Shown one piece after another: positions 39,757 through 43,152 of a stretch of 64,000 bases of DNA (within the stretch, counting starts at the first letter, position 1; each line of letters begins with the position of its first letter). A program made the translations under genes and the position numbers. Source of the stretch: Rhodococcus sp. PAMC28707 (GTDB lineage Bacteria; Actinomycetota; Actinomycetes; Mycobacteriales; Mycobacteriaceae); contig NZ_CP039253.1 in assembly GCF_004795915.1 (NCBI RefSeq), positions 2,976,001 to 3,040,000 of the forward strand. The letters run 5' to 3'. A model generated the notes under the pieces. The model was not told the origin of the DNA. It ran no database searches and was given only the letters and a program-made list of their open reading frames with translations.

Positions 39757-40590
39757 CTACTTGGTCCGCTGTGCCTCGCGGGTTGCCGGGTGGACCGCGA
39801 TGAGGCCCAATCCTCGACGACGCTTGCACAGCGACGCCAACTCGTCGTACGCGGGCTTTCCGAGCATCTCGGTCAGTTCGGGCTTGTACGACTCGAAAAC
39901 CTGCTTCTCTCCGACGTGCGCATCGGGAGAGCCGGAGCAGTACCAGGAAAGGTCGTGACCGCCCTCGCCCCATCCGCGACGGTCGTATTCGCCGATGGTC
40001 GTCTTGAGGATCTCGGTGCCGTCTGGCCGGGTGATCCAATCCTGCGTGCGGCGGATAGGCAGTTGCCAGCACACGTCGGGTTTGACCTCGAGCGGCTCGA
40101 TGCCTTTGCGTAGGGCCATCGAGTGCAGCGCGCAGCCGATGCCGCCGGCGAATCCGGGGCGGTTCTGGAAAATGCACGCACCCTTGTACCGACGTGTGCG
40201 CAGCGATTGCTCGTCGTCGAGGTCGTCGAGTTCGACGTAACCCTTCTTCCCGAGCCCCTTGTCCATCAGTTGCCAGTCTTCCGGCGTGAGCAACTTCACG
40301 GACTCGTCGAGCTTGCGCTTGTCGTCGTCATCGGACAGGAAGGCGCCATGTGAGCAACAACCGTCGTCCGGGCGACCGGCAACCGTGCCCTGACAGGCAG
40401 GAGTACCGAATACACACGTCCAGTTGGACAGAAGCCATGTCAGATCGGCCGCAATGATGTGCTCGGCGTTGTCGGGATCGGGAAATTCCACCCATTCGCG
40501 AGGAAAATCCAGATCAACTTCTGCAGCAAAAGTCTGCTGCCCACTACCTGGTGTCACAAGAGAGGACGGTAGACCCAGTACCGTGGTCAT
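39757..40590 (-). CDS. Cys-rich conserved protein, DUF3109/YkgJ-like (Rv0495c homologue)
   Basis: This 277-residue protein holds many Cys residues in an Fe-S or zinc pattern: [33 protein letters not shown] and PDVCW, WYCSGS. This resembles the YkgJ/DUF3109 family, thought to bind a metal or cluster. No signal peptide. Its start at ATG 40590 abuts the divergent ppx remnant's start at 40591 with no gap, so both promoters lie inside the opposite gene or the messages are leaderless. Function unknown. Confidence 0.8.
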
Positions 40591-41013
40591 GTGCGATTAG
40601 GGGTGCTCGACGTCGGAAGCAACACCACACATCCATCGGTGATGGATGAGATTGTCGGTGGCTTCCCCGATCCTGAACTTCCCGCAAGCGAACGCTTCGA
40701 CGTTCTGCGGGGTGGGCTCGAATCGGAACTGCCGACGGATTTACCGGCTGCGGGCGAGGCGGACCGTACGGTGGGAACGTCGAGGACGTTTCGATCGTTG
40801 GTCCGAAGGCCGGGCGCGGACCGTGCAGGATGGGGATGCGTCGGTGTCGATCGGTCACCACAGTCGGTGTCAGGAGCTTTGGTAGCGGAGGCGAGCATGC
40901 GAGCACTGTCGATCGACCCGATCGAAATCCGTCCGAGGGCGCTGAGGGAAGGTTTGATTGTGCGGAAGCTGGACACCGAAACGACCGGCGATCCGGTAGT
41001 GAGTTCGAAATGA
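40591..41013 (+). pseudogene. Internally deleted Ppx/GppA exopolyphosphatase remnant (Rv0496-like)
   Basis: The 140-codon frame begins [12 protein letters not shown], the Ppx/GppA start, and ends GALVAEASMRALSIDPIEI...LREGLIVRKLD, the Ppx/GppA tail. A full protein has about 320-345 residues. After residue 12 the ASKHA phosphate-binding and catalytic core (about 170 residues) is missing; the sequence resumes near PDPELPASERFDVLRGGLES, then TSRTFRSL. A second gap of about 35 residues follows. The reading frame survived both losses, and its stop still overlaps the next gene's ATG (ATGA). The enzyme cannot be active. Compare the full-length Ppx/GppA expected in relatives. Confidence 0.8.
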
Positions 41014-42299
41014 CGAGCAACAACGCAAATCCGGAGGACACCGGGCAGATCTCCGTTGCCGAGCTACTCGCGCGGAACGGTCAGAAGTCGAACCTCAATT
41101 CGGGTGGACGCCGCCGTCGAGGCGTCAAGGGCGGTATCTCCGTCGCCGAGTTGACCGGGGAAATTCCCGTCGTGCGCGACGAACCGGTCTCTGCCGAAGC
41201 GCCGGTCGTCGAACCTCCGCGTGCCGCCCTGCCGTCACCGCAGCCGACGCCCAAGCCTCAGTTTCAGCAATCGACTCGCAGGCAGCAGGAGCCGGAACTG
41301 TTGTCGGGATCGACGACAGCTGCAGCCGATCTGCTCAATCAAGCTCACGACGAGAACGAGCGTCGGCCTTACGAGTCGGCGGCCACTCAGCGACCGGTGC
41401 CGGTCCGTTCGCGTCAAGCACCAGTGTCGCGTCAAGAAACAGTGTCGCGCCAAGAAACAGTGTCGCGTCAAGAAACAGTGTCGCGTCAAGAAACAGTAGG
41501 GAAGCCGAACCAGGAAGCTGAACCGGTCGAGCGCAGTTCCCGCACTTCAGGCTTCGTTCAACGCAGCCGGTTCTCACGCATCGAAGCAGATGCTGTTCCG
41601 AAGACCGTCGCGGTCGACGAGCCGTCGCAGGCTCGGCCGCGTGCGGCCGATCAGCCCAGCACAGCCGCGATGCCAGCGCAGTCGCGACCGCAACTCTCCG
41701 ACCCGGTCCGGCCCAGGACGCCACTGAACCCGGTCGTGGCAGCTGAAAAGAAGTCGGTCGAAAAGAAATCACCGGAAGCTGAAAAGAAGACGGCGGCGTC
41801 GCCCGCTGCAGCACCGACACCGGATGCGAAGCCGAAGCTCGGAAGAGCGTTCGAGCGGCGCGCAGCATCGAAGCCCGACGACGCTGTGACCGAGGTGACC
41901 GATGCCGTCAAGGTTCGACCGGTCGACAAGAAGGTCGGACCGGTCGTCGAGAAGGTTGAGAAGGACCAGGTAGTCCCCGAAGATGACCTCGCGACGGAGG
42001 CCGCGGACGCCTCGAAGGAACGATCCGACAAGAAGAACGCTGCCAAGCAGTGGCTCGCACTCGCAGGTCAGGGCGCCGTCGCAATCGTGGTGGGCGCACT
42101 CTTGTTCAAGGGCTTCGAGAAGCTCTGGGACATGCTGCCGTGGGTTGCCCTGATATTGGCAGTTCTCGTCATCGTCGGGTTGGTAGCCGTGGTGCGAATT
42201 CTGCGTCGAACCGACGATTTGCTCAGCATGGTGATAGCCATAGCGGTCGGGGTGTTCGTGACATTGGGACCGCTGGCTTTCCAATTGAGTACGGGCTGA
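41010..42299 (+). CDS. Pro/Gln-rich protein with C-terminal membrane helices (Rv0497 homologue)
   Basis: From ATG 41010 the product is 429 residues; the upstream frame is the ppx remnant in another phase. It has a conserved start (QISVAELLARNG...RRRRGVKGGISVAELTGEIPVV), a long disordered Pro/Glu/Lys region, a four-unit repeat SRQETV and three C-terminal membrane segments (LAGQGAVAIVVGALLF, LPWVALILAVLVIVGLVAVV, VIAIAVGVFVTLGPLAF). Its role is unknown. Translational coupling to ppx is kept. Confidence 0.8.
   Translation: MTSNNANPEDTGQISVAELLARNGQKSNLNSGGRRRRGVKGGISVAELTGEIPVVRDEPVSAEAPVVEPPRAALPSPQPTPKPQFQQSTRRQQEPELLSGSTTAAADLLNQAHDENERRPYESAATQRPVPVRSRQAPVSRQETVSRQETVSRQETVSRQETVGKPNQEAEPVERSSRTSGFVQRSRFSRIEADAVPKTVAVDEPSQARPRAADQPSTAAMPAQSRPQLSDPVRPRTPLNPVVAAEKKSVEKKSPEAEKKTAASPAAAPTPDAKPKLGRAFERRAASKPDDAVTEVTDAVKVRPVDKKVGPVVEKVEKDQVVPEDDLATEAADASKERSDKKNAAKQWLALAGQGAVAIVVGALLFKGFEKLWDMLPWVALILAVLVIVGLVAVVRILRRTDDLLSMVIAIAVGVFVTLGPLAFQLSTG
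41425..41496 (+). repeat. Four tandem 18-bp units in the Rv0497-like gene
   Basis: TGTCGCGTCAAGAAACAG recurs at 41425, 41443, 41461 and 41479 (one substitution in unit 2; a degenerate unit precedes). It encodes SRQETV repeats and keeps the frame, so copy-number change is tolerated. Confidence 0.95.
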
Positions 42300-42300
42300 G

Positions 42301-43152
42301 TTGACAGTGGCGCCGAAAGGTTTGGTAGCAGTCGGATTGTCCACAGCTTCGGTGTATCCGCAAAACACCGAAGCGGCGTTTCGCTATGCGGCAGAGCTCG
42401 GCTACGACGGCATCGAGCTGATGGTGTGGGCCGAATCGGTGAGCCAGGAAGTCGACGCCGTTGCATCGCTCTCTCGTAAGTATTCGATTCCGGTGCAAGC
42501 CATCCATGCCCCTTGCCTGCTGATTTCCCAACGAGTCTGGGGCGCCGACCCGGCCGCAAAACTTGAACGTTCGGTGCAGGCTGCAGAGAAATTGGGTGCC
42601 TCTACAGTCGTGGTGCATCCGCCGTTTCGGTGGCAGCGGAAGTACGCCGACGGATTCGCTGATCAGGTGGCGGACCTCGAGATGGGTTCGGACGTCGTGG
42701 TCGCCGTCGAGAACATGTTCCCGATGCGGGCGGACAGGTTGTTCGGGCGCAAGGAAGGATCTGCGGCGAGACTTCGCAAGCGTGGCGGCCCTGGTGCTGC
42801 GCTATCGGCGTTCGCGCCGTCCTACGACCCGACTGATTCCGGGCACGCGCACTACACGCTGGATCTGTCACATACGGCAACTGCCGGGACCGATGCGTTC
42901 GAGATGATGGATCGCATGGGTGCGGGCCTGGCGCATCTTCATCTGGCCGATGGTAGGGGCGCGTCGGTCGACGAGCATCTCATTCCCGGGCACGGCGAAC
43001 AACCGTGCGCCGAGGTGTGCACGGAGTTGGTTCGTCGCGGTTTTCGCGGGCAGGCCGTCATCGAGATCAATACGCAGAACGCGCGCACGCTGCCCGAACG
43101 AGCGTCGATGCTCGGGCAGGCCTTGGCCTTCGCACGGCGGTATCTCGGGTAG
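42301..43152 (+). CDS. Sugar phosphate isomerase/epimerase-like TIM-barrel protein (Rv0498 homologue)
   Basis: This 283-residue protein starts at TTG 42301, or GTG 42307, right after the previous stop. It has the AP-endonuclease-2/xylose-isomerase-like barrel: LSTASVYPQNTEAAFRYAAELGYDGIEL, VVHPPFRWQRKY, VVAVENMFPMR, LDLSHTATAGTDAF, HLADGRG and the closing VIEINTQNAR. Metal ligands Glu/Asp/His fit this. Substrate unknown. Confidence 0.85.
   Translation: MTVAPKGLVAVGLSTASVYPQNTEAAFRYAAELGYDGIELMVWAESVSQEVDAVASLSRKYSIPVQAIHAPCLLISQRVWGADPAAKLERSVQAAEKLGASTVVVHPPFRWQRKYADGFADQVADLEMGSDVVVAVENMFPMRADRLFGRKEGSAARLRKRGGPGAALSAFAPSYDPTDSGHAHYTLDLSHTATAGTDAFEMMDRMGAGLAHLHLADGRGASVDEHLIPGHGEQPCAEVCTELVRRGFRGQAVIEINTQNARTLPERASMLGQALAFARRYLG

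Follow-up and report, generated by a model that had tools for sequence, protein, structure and literature searches.

A decayed exopolyphosphatase gene in Rhodococcus that may persist as a translated leader of the following gene

An open reading frame of 423 nt in Rhodococcus sp. PAMC28707 is the relic of a gene for a Ppx1-type exopolyphosphatase. It retains about the first 12 and the last 68 codons of the 317-codon enzyme gene around an eroded middle. Of the 37 genomes in the genus (Rhodococcoides, the R. fascians group), 13 have nothing more than a relic at the ppx1 locus. On balance, and by a small margin over even, we favour the reading that the dead enzyme gene survives as a translated leader of the Rv0497-like gene behind it.

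Remains of the ppx1 gene

The window is the whole analysed stretch of 64,000 nucleotides; its features are listed in Table 1. The original prediction held in its description of an open frame of 140 codons running by ATGA into the next gene, and in the survival of both protein ends with loss of the catalytic core. The best full-length gene in the genus has 954 nt; the relic aligns with its nt 1–36 at an identity of 0.97 and with its nt 748–954 at 0.82. The interior contains eroded pieces of about nt 530–650 of the full gene (identity 0.78–0.79), and the pieces at relic nt 37–103 are not placeable with confidence. Two in-frame losses had been proposed. The middle does not consist of two clean deletions; the losses exceed two and differ between lineages.

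The Pfam Ppx-GppA profile is matched at positions 241–284/285 only, with 35.2 bits. The NCBIfam exopolyphosphatase model gives 25 bits against a cut-off of 307, so a full-length domain is absent. Ppx/GppA exopolyphosphatases carry two ASKHA loop motifs, DVGSNT and D(I/L)GGGS. The N-terminal loop DVGSNT is present in the relic translation and has changed to DVESNT or DVECNT in two of the five 423-nt relics. The second loop is absent from the relic translation; the intact Ppx2 of the same genome has it as DLGGGS. Locus context, start and the end ALREGL-RKLD match the 317-codon genes of relatives and place the relic with the Ppx1 type (Rv0496/MT0516). Unlike that type, it has lost the greater part of the protein together with the second nucleotide/phosphate-binding loop, and shows no protein constraint over the frame as a whole. 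The source genome is a single 4.73-Mb contig. Assembly collapse at the locus is very unlikely because four other genomes carry the same gap-free 423-nt frame.

The neighbouring genes are presumably the counterparts of Rv0495c, Rv0497 and SenX3/RegX3, names given here by locus order. The divergent gene has no Pfam or NCBIfam match. The downstream gene matches profiles below the cut-off only, DUF2157 in Pfam and EccD in NCBIfam. The disordered part of its product changes fast, with seven in-frame indels among five genomes; the N-terminus is almost fixed and carries a repeated ISVAEL motif.

Table 1. Features at the ppx1 relic locus (positions within the window)
Feature	Position	Strand	Remarks
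Divergent conserved gene	39757..40590	−	Rv0495c-like by position
−10-like box TACCGT, left arm of inverted repeat	40566..40571	−	Presumed promoter of the divergent Rv0495c-like gene
−10-like box TACCGT (TANNNT), 6 nt before GTG	40579..40584	+	Predicted leaderless-type promoter, serving the relic and the following genes
Ppx1 relic ORF	40591..41013	+	GTG start, 140 codons, TGA stop at 41011–41013
Kept 5′ block, nt 1–36 of the full gene	40591..40626	+	From alignment; nearly invariant in the five 423-nt relics
Eroded middle, near-neutral	40630..40842	+	46/213 columns variable (five genomes); pN/pS 1.22
Kept 3′ block, DNA-level conservation	40860..41009	+	7/150 columns variable; synonymous constraint at codons 241–317 (16 full-length genes)
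GGAGG (40887–40891) and in-frame ATG (40897–40899)	40887..40899	+	38 codons before the stop
GGGAAGG (40946–40952) and in-frame GTG (40960–40962)	40946..40962	+	17 codons before the stop; gained start
Proposed 17-codon minicistron leading ribosomes to ATGA	40960..41013	+	Proposed from the start/Shine-Dalgarno pattern
ATGA stop/start overlap	41010..41013	+	Relic TGA overlaps the ATG of the next gene at 41010
Downstream gene, 429 aa, disordered N-terminal and membrane C-terminal part	41010..42299	+	Rv0497-like by position
TIM-barrel sugar isomerase-like protein	42301..43152	+	AP_endonuc_2, 78.5 bits

Occurrence in the genus and number of losses

The decay is not peculiar to this strain. The other 24 of the 37 genomes have a near-full Ppx1 match, and the relics appear as a short C-terminal match. 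Five relics have the same 423-nt form and constitute clade A (G000, the source genome; G020, G021, G029, G032). The eight relics of group B (G008, G011, G014, G015, G022, G025, G027, G030) are shorter and varied. Relic length ranges from 275 to 423 nt and differs between lineages. All 13 keep at least the first 18–26 nt, about the last 160–240 nt and an NTGA overlap with the next gene; the conserved blocks themselves measure some 25–36 nt at the start and 150–200 nt at the end.

A tree of the neighbouring genes requires three losses. It was built from the same locus and represents the history relevant to ppx1. A single clade of all 13 relics was rejected (AU p 6.4e-46). Two losses are firm and three likely, because a clade of B1 (six genomes) with B2 (G011, G030) was rejected at p 0.027 only and B1 itself has weak support (81/63). 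In G019 (L056), ppx1 has 952 nt and the frame from its GTG breaks early; this is either a sequence error or a recent frameshift, perhaps the beginning of a further loss.

Among 67 genomes of 29 other genera, no C-terminal-only match above the match threshold replaced the second full copy. Seven of the 67 have a single match above the threshold, and weaker relics would escape this count. Split Ppx pieces occur in G071 and G043; G062 and G063 have a fragment in addition to two full copies. In the limited selection of literature searched, no earlier description of a ppx1 relic was found.

Polyphosphate enzymes

The second intact Ppx/GppA that was sought elsewhere in the genome is of the Ppx2 type (G000:C1:1089497–1090378), and a full Ppx2-type match is present in all 37 genomes. 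In the excerpted text of one study, Rv0496 (MT0516) is an active exopolyphosphatase and the Ppx2-type protein of M. tuberculosis had no exopolyphosphatase activity (PMC3411833). PPK1 is encoded in 37/37 genomes (in G018 the match is partial and lies where a contig ends); a loss of Ppx1 through lost polyphosphate synthesis was rejected on this ground. A high-scoring PPK2 (303–349 bits) is found in 32 of the 37 and is missing exactly in the five genomes of clade A. Clade A keeps another PPK2, the one noted earlier at the start of the window, where positions 1–158 hold its end. Elsewhere in G000 and G021, there is only a partial PPK2 match of 34.6 bits. Any change in polyphosphate turnover, as suggested earlier for this strain, would occur with PPK1 and Ppx2 still present.

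Promoter region

In all 77 loci, which come from many genera, a TANNNT box ends 6 nt (66 loci), 7 nt (10) or 8 nt (1) before the ppx1 GTG, everywhere within the 6–9 nt before the start codon by which a leaderless transcript is recognised. One other TANNNT match was found within 45 nt across these loci. Leaderless transcripts of M. tuberculosis have TANNNT centred 7–12 bp before their start sites, according to the excerpted text of PMC3898074, and the spacing at the ppx1 loci resembles such mycobacterial starts, here as a prediction from sequence. The promoter region is probably divergent, because a mirror-image ANNNTA on the other strand, 18–20 nt before the GTG, occurs 73 times in the 77 loci.

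The inverted repeat ACGGTA-N7-TACCGT at 40566–40584 lies between the divergent genes and is conserved in most of the genus. It would be an operator or else a pair of −10 boxes that face each other. The ATG of the divergent gene at 40590 falls within the shared promoter, and G008 and G030 lack this codon. The true start of this gene may be the GTG at 40557–40555 on the minus strand, 8 nt behind the minus-strand TACCGT.

Reading frame and gained start codons

Eleven of the 13 relics can be read without a break from GTG to ATGA; in G014 and G027 this frame is broken. Six of the seven distinct relic lengths are divisible by three (binomial about 0.007, with lengths that are not independent). Counted from codon −17/−18, the frame is open in all 13. 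At this position each relic has an in-frame ATG or GTG, against none of 44 non-relic genes, and in each a Shine-Dalgarno-like (SD) GGAAGG precedes it with an anti-SD energy of −5.9 to −6.4. The 17 full-length subclade genes read TTG ATT TTG there. Clade A, B2 and G008 gained the start by TTG to GTG and B1core by ATT to ATG. Apart from these four gains, one per lineage, the tails that were compared contain no T-to-G change.

Simulations were run with as many changes of each kind as had been observed. A shared gain at two adjacent codons in all four lineages was seen in 2 and 1 of 20,000 runs, and in a second simulation in 1 and 0 of 20,000 (without and with the SD condition). For A, B2 and B1core the figures were 21 and 6 of 20,000, again without and with that condition. 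Pairs of lineages gave 448–1222 without and 150–315 with it, of 20,000; these are the figures that apply if B is one lineage. The pattern was noticed post hoc, and the T-to-G changes in a run of TTTT could reflect a mutational hot spot.

Farther upstream, an ATG at codon −38 with GGAGG (anti-SD energy −9.5) is present in 13/13 relics and in 10/17 full-length subclade genes. G014 and G027 retain the starts at −38 and −18, so ribosomes could enter there despite the broken GTG frame. The SD of the next gene itself is weak in clade A (−3.0). In the 17 full-length genes and the remaining relics it reaches −5.4 to −7.0; the genus g23 has weak values too. Dual coding, with the next gene starting upstream within the tail, was rejected for the relics. 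Its frame is open upstream in 29 of 29 sequences, and all 16 full-length genes have a GTG 25 codons upstream; G021 has no such start and G030 none nearer than −363.

Conservation of the 3′ end in intact genes

Synonymous variation was profiled in 16 of the 24 non-relic genomes; G019 was left out for its frame break, and seven outer members of the genus were treated separately. In these full-length subclade genes the variation is 0.260 at codons 2–16, 0.565 at codons 17–240 and 0.283 at codons 241–317. Among 240 contiguous windows, just one has a value as low as that of codons 241–317. The seven outer members show no 3′ drop (0.487 vs 0.435). The comparison with other genera took in 34 of 40 loci, six having been dropped for unequal length. 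There is hardly any drop in the 20 loci of g23 (0.477 vs 0.525, a level reached by 20 of 240 windows) or in the 14 other loci (0.661 vs 0.589); the values of these 14 were obtained codon by codon, ungapped, and may be inflated by misalignment. Judged from these profiles, the synonymous constraint on the tail is older than the losses and peculiar to the subclade in which they occurred. Many loci of g23 and the other genera share an ATGA-type overlap without the constraint; coupling alone thus does not explain it. Codons 241–317 of the 16 genes contain the invariant run GACCGTGCAGAATTGGAAGG.

The constraint, with synonymous sites about half as variable as in codons 17–240 and in the subclade only, is what would be expected if the 3′ end were kept for a DNA or RNA element that predates the losses and controls the Rv0497-like gene by other means than translation, such as an internal promoter, an operator or a small RNA. 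We regard this as unlikely, though the strongest of the alternatives. A plus-strand TANNNT is absent from the last 230 nt in 8 of the 13 relics and stands at −220 in the other five, and no internal TANNNT is common to all. The promoter scan found no sigma-70 consensus, and no Rfam match exceeded the cut-off. RNAalifold z values ranged from +1.07 to −2.66; the lowest belongs to a small hairpin at −60..+30 and is not convincing. Such an element would also leave the gained start codons unexplained.

Decay of the relic

Over the whole frame, the five 423-nt relics of clade A have a pooled pN/pS of 1.06. Relatives with the identical short form were to count against the original prediction if that form was under purifying selection; four relatives have the form, and at this ratio it does not behave as a protein kept by purifying selection. 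The variable sites are spread evenly over the codon positions (20/21/17). The ratio is 1.22 in the middle and 0.43 in the last 55 or so codons (tail range 0.43–0.56), and some protein constraint could persist in the clade A tail. The tails of seven B relics give 1.20. G011 has a tail indel and was excluded here as well as from the invariant run, most RNA-structure sets and part of the dual-coding test. For the divergent neighbour in the same five genomes, pooled pS is 0.135 and pN 0.003, with dN/dS of about 0.00–0.03. Protein-level constraint on the relic appears largely gone, with both ends conserved as DNA.

The variable columns among the five genomes number 71 of 254 in nearby intergenic DNA, 46 of 213 in the relic middle and 7 of 150 in the tail. 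Compared with synonymous rates of the neighbours, tail divergence is 0.021 vs 0.12–0.20 in clade A, 0.090 vs 0.17–0.22 in B1, about half the neutral rate, and 0.144 vs 0.27–0.41 in G011/G030. Clade A relics have no indels and no stops where about 1.6 of each are expected, a weak signal.

The relics might be passing through plain ongoing decay, the ends being what deletions have yet to remove since larger ones would hit the neighbours. The lineage-specific lengths, the two broken frames and the nearly neutral middle agree with this. However, variability in the clade A tail is about one sixth of that in intergenic DNA, and lineages in which the middle was lost independently still have the same ends, which makes bare decay improbable. 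Least credible is a new functional small protein from the C-terminal end of Ppx, for which the low pN/pS of the clade A tail and the stretch REGLIVRKLDTE common to the A and B2 relics could be cited, but which does not agree with the ratios above one for the whole frame and for the tails of the B relics, with the slowing of synonymous sites as well or with the two broken frames.

Discussion

Retention of the dead gene as a translated leader could have come about as follows. Ppx1 would be the ancestral first gene of the operon. Its promoter, of the leaderless type, would overlap that of the divergent neighbour, and its stop codon overlaps the start of the next gene. The enzyme may have become dispensable and then disappeared on more than one occasion within the R. 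fascians subclade, after which the middle could decay nearly freely. The 5′ end would be kept as operon promoter and start codon and also as upstream DNA of the divergent gene. The 3′ end would be kept since ribosomes must still reach ATGA to start the next gene. Most relics would for this purpose keep a continuous frame from GTG to ATGA though the amino acids hardly matter. In each of four lineages, a new ATG or GTG would have arisen 17–18 codons before ATGA behind GGAAGG, and the minicistron from this start would couple translation into the Rv0497-like gene. Transcription and translation of the relic, and its coupling to the next gene, are read from sequence in this scheme.

The prediction that the relic is retained for the downstream gene and not for enzyme activity gains from the decay pattern, the conserved ends and the gained starts. 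Its narrower form, that only start and stop are retained, does not hold: what is kept also includes blocks at both ends and a promoter of leaderless type, and an internal start codon has been gained convergently. As in coupled leader cistrons of the known kind, the relic is a short frame with an SD-like sequence and a start, and it ends in ATGA. Unlike known leader minicistrons, it consists of the remains of an enzyme gene and was seemingly made several times by decay. That an enzyme gene was turned into a translated leader repeatedly, in at least three and perhaps four lineages that each gained a start at the same place, is a tentative proposal to which we give somewhat less than even weight.

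The relics are easily annotated as exopolyphosphatase from the Pfam match although the enzyme is gone. The enzyme lost is the orthologue of an M. tuberculosis protein whose exopolyphosphatase activity has been demonstrated, according to the excerpted text of PMC3411833. For an operon whose first gene has died, the locus shows which parts selection retains, and the parallel cases and intact relatives serve as controls. It leads to a testable claim for leaderless actinobacterial operons: the first open reading frame can lose its protein, not its translation.
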